Assembly: GCF_001592435.1 (NCBI RefSeq)
Contig: NZ_CP014750.1
Span: 1,488,001 to 1,552,000, forward strand
DNA length: 64,000 nt
Source: Thermococcus peptonophilus
Lineage (GTDB): Archaea > Methanobacteriota_B > Thermococci > Thermococcales > Thermococcaceae
Direction of reading: 5' to 3'
Below, piece by piece: positions 5,841-49,726 of the stretch. The notes under the pieces were generated by a model. It did not search any database, was not told the origin of the DNA, and saw nothing but the letters and a program-made list of their open reading frames with translations. The position numbers were made by a program, and so were the translations under genes. Position 1 is the first letter of the stretch. The number at the start of each line of letters is the position of its first letter.

Positions 5841-5924
5841 ACTCTTTCTTCTTATTTCTATATTCCTGATTCTTGTGTTCTGATGAAACTTTGCCCTTCA
5901 AGCTTTTGGAAAAAGCTTGACCAA

Positions 5925-6213
5925 GAAACTTTGCAAGCAAAGTTTCATCAAAGTTTGTGGTTCATGTTTGACAGGTCGTTTTGGGCGGATTTTCCTTTTG
6001 AACGCTGTCTTGGATTGTGAATCTATTTTTATTTGCTCGCTCTTTGTGAGTTTGCTTTTTTAATCGACGCCCATAGGGCGTCAAGGGATTGGAAACTCCT
6101 TTTAACAGGCTGATATTTAGGGAATTCACTGATACCAGGTTGTGTGTTGTGAAAATCCTTGTAGAAATGCAATTTTAAAAGGAACCACGAGCCTTGATCA
6201 AACTTCGCGCAGG
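5925..6213. repeat. repeat unit type 1, copy in array A
   Basis: A 289-bp unit running from a GAAACTTTGC hairpin to the conserved CAAACTTCGCGCAGG. It matches 40562-40851 over its whole length; about 84% of bases agree in the 3' third by hand count. The hairpin GACGCCC-ATA-GGGCGTC is identical in both copies. Confidence 0.85.
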
Positions 6214-6217
6214 CGAA

Positions 6218-6490
6218 CAAGCTTTTGGGAAAAGCTTGACCAAAAATGTTCCCTTCTTCTCGAACTTTGCTTATTGAGTAGTGTATGCGCTTTCCAGAAA
6301 GCAAGCTCGCGTGGGTTCACTCCCAAAATCTATAACTAATTGTGATTTTTGACTTTCTTTTTAGTGTCCTTTGGGGCACTATACGGTGAGAAAATCCCTT
6401 TGAGTCAGCCAATTGAAGGTAAACCCCTCATAAAATGAGCCTGCTTAAAAATGCATGCTACTCTTCCGCTATCCGTTAAGAACGCTTGAA
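6218..6490. repeat. repeat unit type 2, copy in array A
   Basis: It starts with the hairpin CAAGCTTTTGGGAAAAGCTTG, contains the AGTG-type hairpin at 6363-6380, and ends near CCGTTAAGAACGCTTGAA. It matches 40313-40560, and its end is also found at 40029-40066. Confidence 0.8.
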
Positions 6491-6696
6491 TGTCCTTGAA
6501 AATTGGCTGTGGATTGGGGGATTCTCGCAATGAATAGGAAGAGAAGTGCGGGTTTTCTTCTTTTTAACGCCCTTTGGGCGTTATATTGTGGGCAAACCCC
6601 TCGAAAACTGCTAATTGGAGGAAAGAATCACTGAAAACTCGACAGTGTAAAAAGGACATTCACTCTTTGATGAAACTTTGCCCAGCAAAGTTTCTA
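6479..6696. repeat. repeat unit type 3, copy in array A
   Basis: It contains AACGCCCTTTGGGCGTT (6566-6582) and ends with the hairpin GAAACTTTGC-CCA-GCAAAGTTTC immediately beside the tRNA. It matches 40055-40312 and 40851-41090. Paired bases differ between copies in a compensatory way. Confidence 0.8.
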
Positions 6697-6774
6697 TGGC
6701 GGGCCGGCCGGGATTTGAACCCGGGACCTTCGGCTCCGAAGGCCGACGCCCCGTCCAGACTAGGCCACCGGCCC
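6697..6774 (-). tRNA. tRNA-Arg (anticodon TCG)
   Basis: Read on the minus strand, this gives a complete cloverleaf: acceptor GGGCCGG/CCGGCCC, D arm GCCTAGTCTGGACGGGGC, anticodon stem TCGGC/GCCGA with loop CTTCGGA, a T arm with TTCAAAT, discriminator G and an encoded CCA (6697-6699). Anticodon TCG reads CGA codons. No intron is seen. It appears to share a promoter with the upstream sRNA candidate. Confidence 0.95.
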
Positions 6775-6777
6775 GTT

Positions 6778-6840
6778 GCGCCTCAGACGTGGTGGCCCTC
6801 AGCACAGTTCAGTGCCGGGCCAACCGTTCATCCTCGGCCG
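6778..6840 (-). ncRNA. candidate box C/D guide sRNA upstream of tRNA-Arg
   Basis: In minus-strand order: C box AGGATGA (6834-6828), a 15-base guide, D' box CTGA (6812-6809), a 3-base spacer, C' box GTGCTGA (6805-6799), a 12-base guide, and D box CTGA (6786-6783). GGCC before C can pair with GGC after D. The promoter at 6861-6877 predicts a start near 6840, exactly where the RNA should begin. The tRNA starts 4-9 bases after the sRNA end, suggesting a two-RNA transcript split by RNase P. Methylation targets were not identified. Confidence 0.6.
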
Positions 6841-39950: not shown

Positions 39951-40054
39951 GCTTTTCTCTTTTGGCCCAATCCTTTTCATTTTCCTTAGGGACTTGTAAA
40001 TACCCTTTAAGGTAAAGCTTGTTAGAATTGCATACTCTTCTTCCGCCATCCGTC

Positions 40055-40312
40055 AAGGACGCTTGAACGACAGTGAAAGCGGCGCTGAAGCTTTTAGGAA
40101 AAGCTTCACCAAAAGGTTGAATGTCTCTGTGAATTGGCTGAGAATTGGGATTCTCATGACAAACTTGCAGATGAATAAGGGTTTCTTCCTTTTTAACGCC
40201 CTTTAGGCTTTATACTGTGAGTAAAACCCTTGAAAATTGCCAATTGATGATAAGAATCACTGAAAAAACAGGACACTCAAAAGGACATTCGCTCCTTGAT
40301 GAAACTTTTCAG
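40055..40312. repeat. repeat unit type 3, first copy in array B
   Basis: Contains a decayed AACGCC...GGCTTT stem (40195-40211) and the CCCTTGAAAATTGCCAATTGA stretch shared with the other type 3 copies. Its terminal GAAACTTTTC half-hairpin is fused directly to the next unit's CAAGCTTTT hairpin. Confidence 0.75.
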
Positions 40313-40560
40313 CAAGCTTTTGGAAAAAGCTTGACCAAAAATTGCCCTTCTTCTCAAACTTTGCTTATTGGGGAGTGTATGCTCGTCCAGAAAGCAAGCG
40401 GGTTTATTATTAAATCCAACACTGTATCTGAGCGATTTTAACTTCTTTTTTAGTGCCCTTCTGGCACTATACAGTAAGAAAATCCTTTGAATTAGTCAAC
40501 TGAAGTAAACCCTCATAAAATTAGCCTGTTTTAAAAAGCATACTCCTTTTCCGCCAGCGC
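40313..40560. repeat. repeat unit type 2, copy in array B
   Basis: Starts with the CAAGC hairpin (40313-40333), includes TTTGCTTATTG and the AGTGCC/GGCACT hairpin (40452-40468), and ends near CCGCCAGCGC. It matches 6218-6490. Confidence 0.8.
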
Positions 40561-40561
40561 T

Positions 40562-40851
40562 GAAACTTTGCAAGCAAAGTTTCATCAAAGTTTGTGGTTC
40601 TTGCTTGGCATGACATTTTGAGGGGATTTTCTTTTTGAATGCTGTCTTGGGTTGTGAATTCTATTTTTAATTTGCTCTCTCTTTGTGAGTTTGCTTTTTA
40701 ATCGACGCCCATAGGGCGTCAAAGTGAGAAAACTCCTTTTCAGCAGGCTGAAACTTAGGGAATTCACTAATGCTAGCTTGTGTATCTTGAAAATCCTCGT
40801 AGTAGAGCAATTTTAGAAGGAACCACGAGCATTGATCAAACTTCGCGCAGG
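40562..40851. repeat. repeat unit type 1, copy in array B
   Basis: A 290-bp unit matching 5925-6213 (289 bp) over its whole length, including an identical GAAACTTTGC hairpin, an identical GACGCCC hairpin and the end CAAACTTCGCGCAGG. Confidence 0.85.
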
Positions 40852-41090
40852 AAGCTTTTAGAAAAAGCTTCACCAAAAGTTTGAATGTCCTCGAGGAGTG
40901 GCTAGTAAAATGGATTCTCCTGGTGAACGAGCAGAGTAATGCGGGTTTTCCTTCCTTTTTAACGTCCTTCGGACGTTATATTGTGAGTAAACCCCTTGAA
41001 AATTGCCCCATTGATGGAGAATCACCTAAAAAGCAGGACACATAAAATGACATTCCACCTTTGATGAAACTTTTCGTCAGAAAAGTTTCT
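40851..41090. repeat. repeat unit type 3, second copy in array B, at the tRNA
   Basis: Contains AACGTCCTTCGGACGTT (40961-40977) and the terminal hairpin GAAACTTTTC-GTCA-GAAAAGTTTC. Both differ from array A by paired changes that keep the stems. Confidence 0.8.
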
Positions 41091-41091
41091 G

Positions 41092-41169
41092 TGGTGGGCC
41101 CGGGGGGCTTTGAACCCCCGACCACGCGGTTATGAGCCGCGCGCTCTGACCAGGCTGAGCTACGGGCCC
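41092..41169 (-). tRNA. tRNA with anticodon CAT (elongator Met or Ile2)
   Basis: Minus-strand cloverleaf: acceptor GGGCCCG/CGGGCCC, D arm GCTCAGCCTGGTCAGAGC, anticodon stem CGCGG/CCGCG with loop CTCATAA, T loop TTCAAAG, discriminator A, encoded CCA. The acceptor lacks the features of archaeal initiator tRNA. The GGGCCCG acceptor resembles tRNA-Ile, so a tRNA-Ile2 with modified CAT is as likely as elongator Met. Confidence 0.93.
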
Positions 41170-43629: not shown

Positions 43630-45051
43630 TTATTCTTCTATTATCCTTTTCATCCACGTGCCCCTACTGAACCATAGTAAGGCCACCATCGCCGCTAAAA
43701 AGTTGCTCATACCCATTCCGAAGAACACTCCCTTGGGGCTCATCCCGAAGAGCTCCGCGAGAGGTATTCTAAGTCCAAAAACCGTTACCGCCGCGACGTA
43801 GCCGAAGACGTAGCTCAGGGGTATCCTGAAGCCCCAGAGGCGGAGCATGCTGAGAACCATACTCTTCTTGGTGTGTCCAGCTGAGCTAAAAGTCCTCGTC
43901 ACGACAACGAAGATTCCGTTGAAGAACGGAACGGATATCAGGAAGTACTTGAGCACGTACTCACTCTGGGCTATAACCTTCGGGTCGTCGAGGAAGACCT
44001 TGAAGACGGGAACCCTAAAGAGTCCGATTATCAGGATCGCCGAAGAGGCTATGAAGAAGTTGATCACCATTGCCCTCTCTGCTATTCTCTTGGCCCTCTC
44101 GTATCTCTCCGCCCCGATGTTCTGGGCTATCATCGTTCCCATAGCCATGCTGACACCGCGGGCTATGCTCGTTATGAAGTTCACGAGGCGGGTGGTTATT
44201 GTGTAGGCCGCGTAGGTTACATCTCCGTATCCGTAGATTATCCTCGTCAAAACAACGAAGCCAAAGCTGTTGGCGGACTGACCGACGGCTGAGGGAAGGC
44301 CAACGCGGAAAATCCTTGAGTAGAACTCCATATCTGGCCTGAGCGTTTCCCTCGTAAGGTGAAGGCCGGCCCTTCCGCTCGTTAAGAGACGAGCACCTAT
44401 GAGGGCTCCGGTGGCGTTTGAGAGAACAGTTGCTATGGCCGCCCCAGCAACGCCCCACTCGGGGAAGGGTCCAATTCCGAAGATCAGGAGAGGGTCGAGC
44501 ATGATGTTCATGGCAACTGTGAGCATGCTTATCTTCACGGGCGTTTTTGTGTCCCCAGAGGCCCTCATTAGAGCGGAGAACGCCATGAACGTGAAGGAGA
44601 AAGGAACACCCGCAAAAACGACTGTGGCGTAGGCCTTGGCATAGGGATAAACGTTTGGGGTCACTTTCATGAAGTGGAGCGCGTAGGGCAGGACGGCAAG
44701 GCTTATTAAAGCTGTTGCCGTTGAGAAGAAGAGCATGAGGGAGTAGAGCGCTCCAGCTGAGCGGTTGGCCCTCTCGTAGTTCCCAGCACCGATGTACTGC
44801 CCCACAAAGGCGAAGCCTGCGGTGGCAAACCCCATGCCGAGGGCCATAAGGGTTCCTATTATCGGCCAGCTCGTTCCCGGAGCGGCCAAGGCCTCCCTGC
44901 CAAGCTTGCCGAGCCAGAAGGTGTCGGTTATGTTGTAGAGAACCTGCACGAGGTTGCTGACGATTAGAGGGTAGGCTAACTTGAGTAGGGTCTTCTCTAT
45001 CGGCCCGTTGAGAATTTCCTGCCTCATCGCCTGAATCTTTCCGCGCTCCAT
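43630..45051 (-). CDS. MATE-family efflux transporter
   Basis: A 473-residue, 12-helix protein of the MATE/MOP superfamily: LAYPLIVSNLVQVLYNITDT near residue 24 and internal duplication with GLPSAVGQSANSFG near residue 255. It expels drugs or metabolites using an ion gradient. ATG 45051 is favoured by the TATA box at 45084-45093; ATG 45027 (MRQEILNGPI) is an alternative matching the paralogue. The interrupted gene at 48529-51793 is a close paralogue. Confidence 0.88.
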   Translation of the reverse strand: MERGKIQAMRQEILNGPIEKTLLKLAYPLIVSNLVQVLYNITDTFWLGKLGREALAAPGTSWPIIGTLMALGMGFATAGFAFVGQYIGAGNYERANRSAGALYSLMLFFSTATALISLAVLPYALHFMKVTPNVYPYAKAYATVVFAGVPFSFTFMAFSALMRASGDTKTPVKISMLTVAMNIMLDPLLIFGIGPFPEWGVAGAAIATVLSNATGALIGARLLTSGRAGLHLTRETLRPDMEFYSRIFRVGLPSAVGQSANSFGFVVLTRIIYGYGDVTYAAYTITTRLVNFITSIARGVSMAMGTMIAQNIGAERYERAKRIAERAMVINFFIASSAILIIGLFRVPVFKVFLDDPKVIAQSEYVLKYFLISVPFFNGIFVVVTRTFSSAGHTKKSMVLSMLRLWGFRIPLSYVFGYVAAVTVFGLRIPLAELFGMSPKGVFFGMGMSNFLAAMVALLWFSRGTWMKRIIEE

Positions 45052-45083
45052 TCCTACCACAGTAAGACGGGCATCGAAGCGGG

Positions 45084-45114
45084 GATATAAAAAGTTAATG
45101 GAAAGGGTTATATG
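45084..45114. promoter_or_regulatory. divergent promoters of the MATE and DUF4405-like genes
   Basis: TTTTTATATCC on the minus strand (45084-45093) and GGTTATAT on the plus strand (45107-45114) lie back to back in the 95-base gap. Each is about 30-40 bases from its start codon. Confidence 0.55.
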
Positions 45115-45146
45115 GTCGGCGGTCTTTTCGTTACAAGGTGATGCGA

Positions 45147-45398
45147 ATGAACCCAACACAGAAGGTCAAGACAAAAGCCGTTCTCTCCACGATACTGCTT
45201 GCCGTCTATGTGGGGGCGCTGATCCTCACCGCGGGGCAGTTTATAGCGACAAAAAGTGGAAGCTTCCTTGGGATGAGGCAGCTCGATGTTCTGAAACTTA
45301 AGGCCCGCTACGGCCTGATAATGCTGGCCCTGATAGCAGTACACCTAACCCTCAATCTGGACCTCCTCAAAAACGAGTTGAAAGCTCTGGGAAGGTGA
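45147..45398 (+). CDS. small two-helix membrane protein, DUF4405-like
   Basis: An 83-residue protein with two membrane segments (about 13-34 and 56-73) and a histidine in the second (AVHLTLN). It resembles the core of the DUF4405 protein at 46666-47034, which has AVHLFVN at the matching place. The conserved histidine could ligate haem (inference from similar membrane cytochromes). AAGGTGAT precedes ATG 45147. Confidence 0.65.
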   Translation: MNPTQKVKTKAVLSTILLAVYVGALILTAGQFIATKSGSFLGMRQLDVLKLKARYGLIMLALIAVHLTLNLDLLKNELKALGR

Positions 45399-45587
45399 TC
45401 AGACCTCCTCGAGCTTTTTCCTCACTTCTTCGGTGTTCTTCTTGGTCTCCTCAAGGGTGTTCCTGAGCTTCTCCAGCTCAAGCTTCATCTCGTTCAGCGT
45501 CTTGTTCATCTGGTAGAACACGAATATGAACACCACCAGGAGTATCAGGCCGAGGATTATGCTTATCCACCCACTTGGAGTTGACAC
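45399..45587 (-). CDS. single-helix membrane protein with coiled coil
   Basis: A 62-residue protein with one membrane segment (about 7-26), then a charged coiled coil ending RKKLEEV. The GTG at 45587 is chosen because GGGGAGGTGAG lies 4-10 bases upstream; ATG 45608 would lack this signal. It follows the ArsR-type regulator and may share its operon. Function unknown. Confidence 0.65.
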   Translation of the reverse strand: MSTPSGWISIILGLILLVVFIFVFYQMNKTLNEMKLELEKLRNTLEETKKNTEEVRKKLEEV

Positions 45588-45611
45588 GTGCTCACCTCCC
45601 CACGGCATGTT

Positions 45612-45911
45612 TCATTCCTCCAGGCTCTTTATCGTTTCGGTGTCTATAACCACTCTAAACTGCTTTGCGCGGTAGTACTTCTTGGCCCTCGGGTCGTCTG
45701 GCTCAAGGCGTAGCTCGCTCTCGACGAGGCCGGCCTTTTCGAGCTTCTTGAGGTGGAGATAGAGGAGCTGCCTTGAGATTCCCAGCTCCTTGGCCAGCTC
45801 GTAGACGTACCACTCCTTCTGGCAGAGGAGTTTAAGTATTCTAACCCTCACTGGATTGCCGAGGGCCTCTCCGAGGGCCACGAGTTCGTCAACGCTCCGT
45901 ACCATGTCCAT
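45612..45911 (-). CDS. ArsR-type winged-helix transcription regulator
   Basis: A 99-residue protein with a winged helix-turn-helix: GNPVRVRILKLLCQKEWYVY (helix 1-2) and LAKELGISRQLLYLHLKKLE (recognition helix near residue 50), then the wing with YYRAKQFRVV. It has one cysteine (residue 30) and no CVC metal site. It follows the DUF2202 operon on the same strand and is the best local candidate for binding the palindrome at 48381-48406. That link is inference. Confidence 0.85.
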   Translation of the reverse strand: MDMVRSVDELVALGEALGNPVRVRILKLLCQKEWYVYELAKELGISRQLLYLHLKKLEKAGLVESELRLEPDDPRAKKYYRAKQFRVVIDTETIKSLEE

Positions 45912-45982
45912 CACTTTTGGACTGCGTATGCAATCAACACCTTACAGAAAAGAAAAGGGAGAGAGTAGATAAAAGCTTTCCG

Positions 45983-46663
45983 TTAGTTGGGACCGACTAT
46001 CTCGGAATACTCCTCCTCGCTGAGTATCACCGGGCTGTACTTTTCCCCGTTCTTCTCAATGTTGTTCACAAAGGCGCGGAGGTGGTTCTCGCTTCCCTTC
46101 CTCAGGTTTTCAAAGACCACCCTTATGTCCTGGTTGTCAACCTTTTCGAGCCATTCGTTGAGGTCTTTTATGTCCAGCTCCTCTATGTAAGCCCCGACCT
46201 TCAGGGCCTCCAGCTTGCTGGTCTTCCCCCTCTCAACGAGCTCGTTGTAGAGACTTTCCATTTCAGGGCTCGCGAATTCTCCAATTCCCAGTCCCTCAAC
46301 CGGGTCGGTGAGGTTGTATTTTTCGATTAAGGACAGCACCATGTCCATGTGGGTCTCTTCACTCTTCTCTATGTTTCTAAACACCGTCAATCCCGTCTCG
46401 TTGTAGAGCGTTAGGTAAACGTCCCTCGCGAGCTTCTCCTCTTCGCGCATGTAGAGGATTGCCGCCATCTCATCCTGGCTGAGGTTCTCGGCGGGCAGTG
46501 TTGAGACGTCCACGTCTTCCCCCACTCCCTTGCCGTAGCCCTTGTCCTCCGGGGGCCCTCCACTGGCATTCTCATTTGGAGTGCTGCTGCTCGATATGCA
46601 CCCGCTCGCAACGACGAGGATAATCAAAAGGCCGACCAGTCCAAAGATCGCGTTCCTTTTCAT
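45983..46663 (-). CDS. DUF2202 ferritin-like lipoprotein
   Basis: A 226-residue protein with a lipoprotein signal (VVASGC, cysteine near residue 20) and a DUF2202 four-helix domain. Candidate metal ligands: EEKLARDVY near residue 74, EETHMDM near 100, and GSENHLRAF near 190. It is a close relative of the protein at 47490-48365. ATG 46663 has GAGGGG 7 bases upstream; 46669 is possible. Last gene before the regulator. A role in metal or oxidant handling at the cell surface is inference. Confidence 0.8.
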   Translation of the reverse strand: MKRNAIFGLVGLLIILVVASGCISSSSTPNENASGGPPEDKGYGKGVGEDVDVSTLPAENLSQDEMAAILYMREEEKLARDVYLTLYNETGLTVFRNIEKSEETHMDMVLSLIEKYNLTDPVEGLGIGEFASPEMESLYNELVERGKTSKLEALKVGAYIEELDIKDLNEWLEKVDNQDIRVVFENLRKGSENHLRAFVNNIEKNGEKYSPVILSEEEYSEIVGPN

Positions 46664-46665
46664 TT

Positions 46666-47034
46666 TCATCCCCTCATCACGGCGTAGATTATTCCTCCAC
46701 CAACGAAGAGCACGGAGAGGGCTATTAGGGCAGCTGTGCTCCTCCAGTTTACCTTCCGCTCCTTTCTGTTGGTGACGATGTTTCTCAGCATGCACAGCAT
46801 CGGGTTGAAGTTGACGAAGAGGTGGACTGCCACCAGCGCTATCATGGCGAAGCCAAAGTATATGTGGAGCCCTTCCCATGCCTCTTTGCCGAGGCCTAGG
46901 AAAGTCCAGAACTCCTCTCTCGCAATCCGCCCGTTTGGGGCGAGGTACAGGGCTATCCCCGAAAGGGCTTCGAAGATAAAATCAAAGAGCAGGAGCAGGT
47001 CGAGGGTTGGCTTAAACCATCTCGGGACTCTCAT
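46666..47034 (-). CDS. DUF4405-type membrane protein
   Basis: A 122-residue protein with three membrane segments and histidines in HIYFGF (near residue 57) and AVHLFVN (near residue 70), spaced as in small membrane b-type cytochromes. Haem binding is suggested but not shown. Its ATG overlaps the stop of the 46-residue microprotein, and its stop abuts the next gene, so it is inside a tight operon. Confidence 0.78.
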   Translation of the reverse strand: MRVPRWFKPTLDLLLLFDFIFEALSGIALYLAPNGRIAREEFWTFLGLGKEAWEGLHIYFGFAMIALVAVHLFVNFNPMLCMLRNIVTNRKERKVNWRSTAALIALSVLFVGGGIIYAVMRG

Positions 47035-47171
47035 TCTTCATTACACTCCTCTATTTCTTCTTCCCTGAAAGAGCCTCTCGCGATAAGGTATCCGACCACC
47101 ATCACCGCGGCGATCACTATAAGGCCAACCACGAGGCCAATCTCATTTCTACCAGCGTCAATAGGCCCCAT
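47031..47171 (-). CDS. 46-residue single-helix membrane microprotein
   Basis: Reads MGPIDAGRNEIGLVVGLIVI and on: one membrane helix (about 10-30), then an acidic tail EEEIEECNEE with one cysteine. GGAGGG lies 8 bases upstream, the stop overlaps the DUF4405 start (ATGA), and its start overlaps the end of the 39-residue frame. Tight overlaps on both sides argue it is real. Confidence 0.6.
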   Translation of the reverse strand: MGPIDAGRNEIGLVVGLIVIAAVMVVGYLIARGSFREEEIEECNEE

Positions 47172-47277
47172 CTCTTTTGCCCTCCTCTCTGTGGATAGCC
47201 GGTGAGGGTTGGGGGCTCTGGGTTCCCTTGATGAGCTTTAATATGAAGTTCAGGATTGTCGTTATGGACTTACTCAT
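47158..47277 (-). CDS. 39-residue microprotein
   Basis: Reads MSKSITTILNFILKLIKGTQ and on: an amphipathic helix, then a proline- and charge-rich tail. GGAGGTAAG lies 3-11 bases before the ATG. It overlaps the next gene by 14 bases. Function unknown; support is the ribosome binding site and operon position. Confidence 0.5.
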   Translation of the reverse strand: MSKSITTILNFILKLIKGTQSPQPSPAIHREEGKRDGAY

Positions 47278-47281
47278 TGTC

Positions 47282-47455
47282 TTACCTCCTCAGCAGGGCA
47301 TAGATTATTGCGCCGAACAGGAGCAGGGGCAGTAGGAGTAGTGCAAATCTCGCCATCAGGAAGAGAATTCCGAATATCCCTAAGCCCCACCAGCCCCAGC
47401 CGAACCCTCTTCTCCCGTGCATCGGGCCAATCATTGGACCGAACCCGCGTGGCAC
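47282..47455 (-). CDS. 57-residue Gly/Trp-rich membrane microprotein
   Basis: Starts at a GTG preceded by GGAGGTGAG and reads VPRGFGPMIGPMHGRRGFGW, then WWGLGIFG and a long hydrophobic stretch (one long or two short membrane helices) ending YALLRR. It follows the first DUF2202 gene by 34 bases. Function unknown; probably a small membrane partner of the operon's products. Confidence 0.6.
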   Translation of the reverse strand: MPRGFGPMIGPMHGRRGFGWGWWGLGIFGILFLMARFALLLLPLLLFGAIIYALLRR

Positions 47456-47489
47456 TTCTCTCACCTCCAAAAGGGAATAAAGAGAGGCT

Positions 47490-48365
47490 TCAGGCTCCAT
47501 CAGCCTGCATGGGGCAGTCCCCTCTGCCGTAGCCCCTCATGGGCTTGTTCCCTTCACCGTTGCCGCCTTTTCCATGTTCGTGGGTGCCTTTCTCGTGTCC
47601 GTTGCCCTTCATCCTTCCGTCCATTTTTCCTCTCTGTCCCTTTGTCATCCTGTCACTGTTCTTCATGTGGTCGTGATTTCCTCCTGCCATCATCTTCCCG
47701 TGTCCGCTGTGGCTAGCCTCTCCAGCCAGTATTTCGTCAACCTGCTCCTGTGGAAGCACCTGGGCGGTGTACTCAACACCCTGTGCTTCAAGGTTCCTCA
47801 CGAAGGCCCTAAGGTGGTTCTCGCTTCCGGCCATAAGGTTGCTGTAAACCCTTACTATGTCCTCGTTGTCTGTCTTGGCGATCCACTCCTCAAGGTCCTT
47901 GATGTCGGTTTCCTCTATGAGCGCCCCAACTTTGAGTGCATCAATAGTGCTCTGGCTTCCCTGCTCGACCAGCTGGTCGTAGAGAGCCTGGAGCTCAGGG
48001 TTCTCAAAGACGCCAATCTGGTCGAGCGTGCTCGGTGCGGTCAGGTTGTACTTCTCGATCAGCGACAGCATGGCATCCATGTGTCTCTGCTCGCTCTGGG
48101 CTATCCTCTCGAAGACTGTGAGACCTGTTTCGTTGTGGAGCGTTAGGTAGACATCCCTCGCAAGCTTCTCCTCCTCGACCACGTAGATCAACCCACTGGC
48201 CTCTTCGTCGCTTAGCGGTGCGTAGTAATCGGCATAACTACTCTGGTAGAGCTGCTCTGCTTCCGGGTTCGGACCAGGTGTGCCTCTGTAGGCCGCTACT
48301 CCCCCCAGCACCAGCCCGAACAGGGCCAGCACCAGGAAACCAATTCCCAATATTTTCTTTCTCAT
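47490..48365 (-). CDS. DUF2202 ferritin-like secreted protein with Met/His-rich tail
   Basis: A 291-residue protein: signal or anchor helix (about 5-26), a DUF2202 helical domain (about 45-210) with EEKLARDVY, SEQRHMDAM and GSENHLRAF, then a low-complexity tail rich in His, Met, Gly and Lys (SHSGHGKMMAGGNHDHMKN) of the kind that binds copper or other metals. First gene of the operon. Outside metal sequestration is inference. GGAGAG precedes the ATG. Confidence 0.82.
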   Translation of the reverse strand: MRKKILGIGFLVLALFGLVLGGVAAYRGTPGPNPEAEQLYQSSYADYYAPLSDEEASGLIYVVEEEKLARDVYLTLHNETGLTVFERIAQSEQRHMDAMLSLIEKYNLTAPSTLDQIGVFENPELQALYDQLVEQGSQSTIDALKVGALIEETDIKDLEEWIAKTDNEDIVRVYSNLMAGSENHLRAFVRNLEAQGVEYTAQVLPQEQVDEILAGEASHSGHGKMMAGGNHDHMKNSDRMTKGQRGKMDGRMKGNGHEKGTHEHGKGGNGEGNKPMRGYGRGDCPMQADGA

Positions 48366-48380
48366 GTTGGTTCATCTCTC

Positions 48381-48406
48381 CATATGTAACTTTAATATTA
48401 CATATG
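48381..48406. promoter_or_regulatory. perfect palindromic operator at the DUF2202 operon
   Basis: CATATGTAA - 8 bases - TTACATATG is a perfect 9-bp inverted repeat. The promoter BRE/TATA CGAAAGCTTTATAAAC (minus strand, 48411-48430) predicts a transcript start near 48396-48400, inside the palindrome. That position suits a repressor. Confidence 0.75.
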
Positions 48407-48410
48407 TCTT

Positions 48411-48430
48411 GAAAGTTTATAAAGCTTTCG
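48411..48430 (-). promoter_or_regulatory. promoter of the DUF2202 operon
   Basis: On the minus strand CGAAAGCTTTATAAACTTTC is an excellent BRE/TATA pair about 50 bases before the start codon at 48365. Confidence 0.7.
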
Positions 48431-48528
48431 GTTGGGGCCACGAGAACGAAACAGGTATATTTTGAGTACTAGTCTCAATGAGCGTTACAGGAAAATTGAA
48501 GAAGAATGACAGAACTCATAATGGGAAA

Positions 48529-49720
48529 TCAGTGCCTCTCGATTATCGCCCTCATCCAGCTCCCCCTAAGGAACCAGGCGAGCGCTATGACTGCTCCAAG
48601 GACGTTGCTGAGGCCCATTCCAAGCCACATTCCGGCGGTGTCCCTCATAAGAACCCCAAGGCTGTAGCTGAGGGGGAGCCTTATGCCCCAGAGGCGGATC
48701 ATCCCAATTACCATGCTCTTCTTGGTGTGTCCCGCGCTGTTGAAGGTGTTGTTTACAGCGGAGAATATCCCGAAGAAGGGGAGCGAAGCTGAGAAGTAGA
48801 GAACTACCTTCCTGCTCTCAGCTATTATGGCTGGGTCGTTGATGAAGAACCGGAATATCGGGACCCGAAAGACTGCAAAGAGTGTTGTCCCAACGCTCAG
48901 GATTGTGAAGTTTATGAGCATAGTCTTCTCGGCTATCTTCTTAGCCCTATCATAGAGGCCCGCTCCAATGCTCTGGCCGACCATAGTTCCCATCGCCATG
49001 CTTATGCCATCGGAGAAGGCGAACATGAAGTTGGTGAGCCTGTTGGTTATGCTGTACGTCGCGAAGGCCACATCCTCATAGTGCGGAAGCCCATGTGCTT
49101 CTCCGTAGAGCCTTCCAACGGTGAAGATTACCCTTGTGAGGATGACGAAGCCGAGGGCTGTGGTTGATGAGCCGACGCTTGAAGGAAGCCCCACGCGGAA
49201 TATTCTCGAGTAGAATTTGAGGTCGGGCTTGAGGGTTTCAGGTGTGAGGTGAATTCCCACTCTGCCCGTGAACAGGAGATAACCACCTATTATCGAGCCA
49301 GTTGTGTTTGACAGCATCGTCGCAACGGCCGCACCAACGACGCCAAGCTGTGGAAACGGCCCCCACCCGAAGATGAAGAAGGGATCAAGGACGAGGTTGA
49401 GGAGGACCGTACCGATGTTTATCTTAACCGGCGTCCTCGTGTCGCCAACCGCCCTCAGGAGGAAGTTGAAGGCGAAGAGCGTGAAGGAAAAGGGTATGCC
49501 CGCAAAGATGACCCTCGTGTATCTGAGGGCGTAGGGAAATATCGTGTTGCTTACGCCCATCAAACGGAGCAGATAGGGGGCGAGAATAACACCGAGGATT
49601 CCAACGGCCGTCGCGAAGAGGAGCATGAGGGAGTAGAGTGCTCCAGCGTAGCGGTTGGCCTTGTCGTAGTCCTTCGCCCCAACGTACTGGCTCACGAAGG
49701 CGAAGCCCGCTGTTGCAAAC
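48529..49720 (-). pseudogene. C-terminal part of a MATE transporter split by an IS607-family element
   Basis: 396 codons, from FATAGFAFVSQYVGAKDY to the stop, homologous along its length to the MATE protein at 43630-45051. The frame ends abruptly at the element boundary near 49720. Joined to the 74-codon N-terminal piece at 51572-51793 it gives 470 residues, close to the paralogue's 473, with no residues lost. Apart from the insertion, the frame is intact. Confidence 0.9.
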
Positions 49721-49726
49721 CGTTCT

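Follow-up and report, generated by a model that had tools for sequence, protein, structure and literature searches.

What occupies the roughly 0.8 kb of DNA that ends two bases short of a tRNA-Arg gene in Thermococcus peptonophilus? The window analyzed here, 64,000 nucleotides of contig NZ_CP014750.1 (assembly GCF_001592435.1; positions 1,488,001 to 1,552,000 of the forward strand), contains at positions 5881-6696 a tandem array, designated array A, which consists of three diverged units and a distal remnant on the minus strand, the strand of the tRNA. An earlier note, made from the letters of this stretch, had wavered between a structured RNA, a DNA-level element, and a decayed mobile element. 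We find that array A is one of many: approximately 40% of Thermococcus tRNA genes carry undescribed non-coding repeat arrays 2-10 bases past their end. The units are anchored at tRNAs in a fixed orientation and carry an inverted ladder of short boxes, which match rung by rung and change jointly with their partners; the units also turn over and exchange segments as mosaics. In the explanation that we favor, to which we assign roughly even prospects, the arrays would represent a dispersed, palindrome-bounded, non-coding family of DNA repeats that became established at tRNA 3′ ends in Thermococcus and allied genera, is exchanged by recombination, and is bound by a putative protein.

Distribution of the Arrays

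A DNA search of the window's genome (a 1.85 Mb chromosome and one small contig) yielded 48 matches at 18 places, 17 of which begin 2-10 nt past a tRNA CCA, in every case in the orientation of the tRNA. These 17 include one tRNA half severed by an integrated element and two tRNAs with introns, and the arrays serve 18 of the approximately 46 tRNAs in the genome. The end palindromes AAACTTTGCn(0-8)GCAAAGTTT and AAGCTTTTn(0-6)AAAAGCTT occur in 12 and 18 exact copies, respectively, in the 1.9 Mb genome; because these copies are confined to arrays and the reversed-pattern controls gave 0, the occurrence of the arrays is not due to chance.

In the comparison genome (G024; 2,088,737 bp), which we take to be T. 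kodakarensis KOD1, 19 of 20 places are located at tRNAs. The sole non-tRNA array occupies the same position in the two species (L044 2440-2800, G000:C1:1406578-1406895, and L128 820-1300), with a predicted methyltransferase gene and the gene for ribosomal protein L3 downstream of it. L129, another candidate non-tRNA copy, was rejected as the distal end of the array at tRNA-His. Limitation of the arrays to gaps between convergent genes was likewise rejected, since a co-oriented open reading frame (ORF) follows 11 of 16 arrays.

A family-wide scan, using a pattern of T-arm, CCA, 1-6 nt, and AAACTTYKC with the reversed pattern as a control, detected the hairpin behind the CCA in 76 of 94 Thermococcaceae genomes, representing five of six genera, with reversed controls near 0. 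The pattern was absent from all nine genomes of genus g3, presumably Pyrococcus, as well as from the 21 genomes scanned elsewhere in the phylum. The earlier note had counted a DNA-level element that targets tRNA genes among its options and had asked whether copies might be lacking beside tRNA genes in other genomes; such copies abound in T. kodakarensis and across the family, and together with the 17 of 18 places in the window's genome they bear this option out. Neither the array nor the hairpin patterns have a match in G034 and G072, which are nearly complete genomes of the same genus and offer a natural comparison for function. Among named relatives, identified through the neighboring dcd gene, the orthologous tRNA-Arg bears other unit types or none. 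Elsewhere, tRNA-Arg(ccg) (L109 920-997 and its 3′ flank; G000:C1 c.1266.8 kb) is followed by a solo end hairpin and then ACCAAAG, as if an array had collapsed.

Architecture of the Repeat Units

Four unit families (u1-u4), each with units of 210-300 bp, follow one common plan. A central palindrome of 17 nt (7 bp and a 3-nt loop) defines a dyad, from which inverted boxes of 6-8 nt start at 24, 55, 86, and 117 nt, giving a pitch of 31 nt, and both unit ends are palindromic (H5 and H3). Units share approximately 70-77% identity, and the four types are interspersed. In array A, blastn against the unit families gave the order u1-u2-u3 on the tRNA strand, with the following features (those marked unstranded are symmetric pairs or palindromes):

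6697-6774, minus strand: tRNA-Arg(TCG), anchor of array A (ARAGORN and Rfam)
6672-6694, minus strand: H5, 5′ end palindrome of the first unit, GAAACTTTGC-TGG-GCAAAGTTTC (sequence; genome-wide confined to arrays)
6485-6696, minus strand: unit u1 (blastn against unit families)
6566-6582, unstranded: u1 central palindrome (dyad), AACGCCC-TTT-GGGCGTT (sequence)
6218-6484, minus strand: unit u2, with 3′ palindrome H3 at 6218-6238 (blastn against unit families)
6363-6380, unstranded: u2 central palindrome (dyad), imperfect in the array A copy (sequence)
5925-6217, minus strand: unit u3, with 3′ palindrome H3, GAAACTTTGC-nn-GCAAAGTTTC, at 5925-5946 (blastn against unit families)
6066-6082, unstranded: u3 central palindrome (dyad), GACGCCC-ATA-GGGCGTC (sequence)
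6048-6098, unstranded: u3 rung 24, GAGTTT at 6048-6053 and AAACTC at 6093-6098 (sequence)
6017-6129, unstranded: u3 rung 55, GTGAATC at 6017-6023 and GAATTCAC at 6122-6129 (sequence)
5987-6158, unstranded: u3 rung 86, GGATTTTC at 5987-5994 and GAAAATCC at 6151-6158 (sequence)
5957-6188, unstranded: u3 rung 117, GTGGTTC at 5957-5963 and GAACCAC at 6182-6188 (sequence)
5881-5919, minus strand: distal remnant, an H3-type palindrome at 5899-5919 and a truncated u1 start (sequence)

Much of what the earlier note had described is recognizable here. No ORF inside the array has a Pfam match, in agreement with its statement that the region holds no credible gene, and a 2-base gap (6695-6696) indeed lies between the final hairpin and the CCA that tRNA-Arg encodes at 6697. 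The three diverged units are present as well, although the borders proposed for them overlapped slightly. The reported core of T-tract, hairpin, and GTGAG-AAA-CCCTT also exists, but it is merely the center of a far longer dyad-symmetric structure that had been overlooked.

The further copies that had been called array B proved genuine. This array (c.39990-41091) contains four units in the order u1-u3-u2-u1 on the tRNA strand, again from blastn, and its H5 differs from that of array A by a compensated change from G-C to T-A:

41092-41169, minus strand: tRNA-Met, anchor of array B (ARAGORN and Rfam)
41066-41089, minus strand: H5 of array B, GAAACTTTTC-TGAC-GAAAAGTTTC, 2 nt past the CCA (sequence)
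40851-41091, minus strand: unit 1, u1 (blastn against unit families)
40562-40850, minus strand: unit 2, u3 (blastn against unit families)
40313-40561, minus strand: unit 3, u2 (blastn against unit families)
40087-40312, minus strand: unit 4, u1 (blastn against unit families)
39990-40086, minus strand: distal remnant, a u2-like start (sequence)

The ladder was first noticed in the consensus of local units, and 66 units of other genomes served to test it. An inverted-match test placed the rungs at 24, 55, 86, and 117 in 58 local units, and at 24, 55, 85-87, and 116-119 in the 66 distant ones. Between boxes of the same rung, the fraction of units with 7/7 matches was 0.62 (rung 55) and 0.60 (rung 86); across rungs, the fractions were 0.00-0.02 in the local set and 0.00-0.05 in the distant set. 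Perfect 7-mers were few at rung 24 (0.05 and 0.17). When a left box was compared with the right box of another unit of the same family, the fractions were 0.57 (rung 55) and 0.53 (rung 86), as against 0.01 and 0.12 with a unit of a different family. Because matching is high within families and rare between them, partner boxes have been altered jointly on both arms.

No shuffled consensus sequence gave as many boxes around a single dyad as were observed, and the boxes are kept in most copies while the spacers diverge. Of u1, u2, and u3, only u3 showed significant Fourier power at 28-32 nt when conservation alone was used; the inverted-match test proved the better measure of the ladder. Internal units lack the first arm of the start hairpin (u3 starts at L040 and L122-L123; u2 starts at L114, L118, L119, and L124), and some hold inserts of approximately 32 or 43 nt with another hairpin, whereby the dyad-to-dyad distance increases by approximately 31 or 43 bp. 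To the best of our knowledge, no known family has a conserved 31-bp inverted ladder.

DNA or RNA Constraint

Single units fold better than shuffled sequences (z -2.6 to -4.0); this folding energy is uninformative with respect to RNA, however, because any inverted repeat would fold in this manner. Base-pair counts are more instructive. Boxes and hairpins were chosen by Watson-Crick matching, which depresses all mismatches alike, and the informative comparison is that of G.T with A.C, as helices of RNA would be expected to tolerate G.U much more readily than A.C. The central hairpins comprise 863 Watson-Crick, one G.T, and three A.C pairs; the end hairpins 1032, four, and 10, respectively; and the boxes 1935, 67, and 53, with 225 others. 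Compensatory changes are present in the helices, yet G.T is no commoner than A.C. Covariation G-tests on single families were swamped by shared ancestry, and only the central hairpin gave a clear signal. Because the boxes vary jointly between families and G.T is not enriched relative to A.C, the constraint on the units looks to be at the level of DNA rather than RNA.

Turnover and Probable Recombination Among Arrays

A comparison of the window's genome with that of T. kodakarensis shows approximately 90-94% identity in the flanks. The similarity of units is 0.75, 0.69, and 0.74 at orthologous tRNAs, compared with 0.75, 0.69, and 0.73 at unrelated ones. Of 75 copies, 48 have their closest relative within their own genome, and one has it at the orthologous tRNA. 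Within one genome, pairs of arrays share 130-240 nearly or fully identical bases with abrupt ends inside units, and two of these identity tracts begin in the tRNA. Because orthology of the host tRNA brings no added likeness and the identity tracts break inside units, recombination appears to shuffle the units. Neighbors of the same type are absent at 50 junctions, where approximately 14 would be expected (the one case counted as such is a single, internally deleted u3), and we infer that this absence fits recombination with loss of tandem duplicates. Despite the turnover, the tRNA hosts are largely common to both species.

The anticodons TCG and CCG of tRNA-Arg were found to be swapped between two otherwise syntenic loci of T. 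kodakarensis and the window's genome (L126 714-791 and L137 354-431 against L109 and window 6697-6774). The swapped loci adjoin a shared identity tract that runs through the array start, and gene conversion between tRNA loci is likely.

Integrated elements have split three tRNAs from their arrays; T. kodakarensis accounts for two of them, tRNA-Val(cac) and tRNA-Arg(tct), and the window's genome for the third, tRNA-Val(tac). Because these insertions separated tRNAs from arrays, the arrays predate the insertions and are independent of them. At L032 1014-2504 (G000:C1 c.257.2-258.7 kb), an integrase-like ORF runs through the 3′ half of a tRNA-Val. Since the array lies beyond this severed half, with the intact tRNA-Val(tac) found at 255,910, the insertion parted tRNA and array.

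Comparison With Known Systems

No earlier description of these repeats was found in the open-access literature, subscription papers being outside the scope of the search. The bacterial REP/BIME repeats with their RAYT (TnpA-REP) are also short, dispersed, non-coding intergenic palindromes; they form inverted pairs, and the foot of their hairpins bears a conserved motif. However, REPs measure 20-40 nt and are not bound to tRNAs, whereas the present units measure 210-300 nt and carry a 31-nt ladder. Palindromic ends are shared with the IS200/IS605-derived repeats (REP/BIME and PATE), but the Y1 HUH transposase of those systems is absent from the window's genome. ERIC-like repeats and miniature inverted-repeat transposable elements, including palindrome-associated archaeal derivatives of IS200/IS605, are similarly imperfect palindromes of 100-300 nt without genes; unlike them, the arrays lie almost exclusively at tRNA 3′ ends in a fixed orientation with strictly phased boxes, and neither an autonomous partner nor a target duplication was found for them.

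Integron attC sites in cassette arrays are also imperfect palindromes placed head-to-tail beside a fixed landing point, although the tRNA arrays contain no cassettes or genes and possess a four-rung ladder. SSV-type integrative elements, the Dictyostelium TRE, and casposons share the location at tRNA 3′ ends, whereas the arrays have no integrase, duplication of tRNA sequence, or coding capacity, and integrative elements cut pre-existing arrays off. A CRISPR array, which the earlier note had already discounted, was rejected because the units are long, diverged, and of four types. Also rejected were a stack of integrase attachment sites, since the junctions hold palindromes and no tRNA fragments, and an Rfam family, with no match at the gathering score.

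Weighing the Explanations

Under the favored explanation, that of a recombining DNA repeat family, each unit would act as DNA, with the central palindrome setting the dyad, boxes following every 31 bp on both arms, and palindromes closing the ends. Homologous recombination among arrays would be the main route by which units spread and are homogenized, the tRNA 3′ half and the end palindrome supplying the left homology and shared boxes the remainder. The putative protein would recognize the ladder on DNA, and its assembly may take place along one side of the duplex or on a single strand that has folded locally; 31 bp corresponds to three helical turns. A bolder claim, which we hold to be less probable than not, is that these are tRNA-anchored DNA elements of a new class, with arms complementary only at rungs 31 nt apart. 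If this were true, a protein or recombination machine would read folded, ladder-like DNA, and Thermococcus would mark or exchange the ends of its tRNA loci; the 31-bp inverted ladder could then reveal a new DNA-binding or recombination system. T. kodakarensis, a model archaeon with good genetics, would bear approximately 50 undescribed conserved copies near approximately 20 tRNA genes, permitting a direct test of tRNA genes as landing or organizing sites in archaea.

Several results weigh against the favored explanation. Pattern scans of IMG/VR and blastn against plasmids and phages revealed no relatives on viruses or plasmids. A mobilizing enzyme was not found either: the Y1 transposase (PF01797) has 0 matches in the window's genome and was rejected as mobilizer on that ground, and in the family it occurs in 25 of 94 genomes without relation to array presence, many array-bearing genomes having none. 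Among four tRNA-Arg flanks compared between two species, there was no clean pair of empty and filled sites. Finally, the boxes are better conserved than inert selfish DNA would be, which could mean a host function. A decayed mobile element in the form given by the earlier note is not supported, given the retention of boxes amid diverging spacers and the large number of arrays; past mobility may nevertheless have occurred.

Given this steady conservation of boxes in most copies, a host role in chromatin or insulation is the main rival, if a somewhat improbable one. The 31-bp ladder would phase nucleoprotein (a histone lattice, TrmBL2, or an SMC site) beside highly transcribed tRNAs, and the arrays would serve as chromosome-architecture marks. 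Histone particles of T. kodakarensis grow in increments of approximately 30 bp (PMC11946384; by its topic, also PMC10516927), close to the pitch observed here; we regard this as a lead, the comparison being one of pitch alone. The arrays are also AT-rich (GC 0.41 for array A and 0.40 for array B, against 0.51 in the window), boxes are retained amid diverging spacers, and the tRNA hosts stay largely the same between species despite unit turnover, all of which favors such marks. On the other hand, histones are weakly sequence-specific and would have no need for rung-specific matching with family-specific boxes, and the pattern is missing from all nine genomes of genus g3. The latter point also counts against a tRNA 3′-end module, in which the end hairpin and a T-tract approximately 17 nt further on would end or protect the tRNA transcript, the other units being surplus. 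A hairpin does stand 2-10 nt past the CCA in all first units, and in both the window's genome and T. kodakarensis, u1-u4 have the T-tract; nevertheless, over half of the tRNAs have other flanks instead of the hairpin, the T-tract is not kept in other species, and units of 200-300 nt with ladders, in arrays of up to four, are left unexplained, making this module improbable.

Still less probable is a structured non-coding RNA transcribed by read-through, which the earlier note had envisaged as read from the tRNA promoter. The folding of single units speaks for it only to the extent that it would for any inverted repeat, and pairing is almost purely Watson-Crick with no enrichment of G.U. Furthermore, AT-rich boxes of 7-8 nt separated by approximately 23 unpaired nt on each side would pair poorly at 85°C; the Rfam scan of the window found tRNAs and C/D box small RNAs (sRNAs) only, with nothing in array A; and the main text of the T. 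kodakarensis transcriptome paper does not contain the word "repeat" and apparently mentions no RNA behind tRNAs. Remnants of integrative elements, accreted as attachment sites through repeated site-specific integration at tRNAs, are very unlikely, even though integrases classically target the 3′ ends of tRNAs and some array-bearing tRNAs do host integrated elements. Internal junctions contain no tRNA fragments, and at the three split tRNAs the array sits beyond the detached 3′ half, so it is not the integrated element and was there first.

Neighboring Features

Immediately upstream of tRNA-Arg, the C/D box sRNA sR47 (6781-6838) is encoded in both the window and T. kodakarensis. At 43810-49721, the window also contains several diverged direct repeats of 115-155 bp, with 71-82% identity and spacings of 1.7-4.9 kb, which are perhaps paralogous genes.
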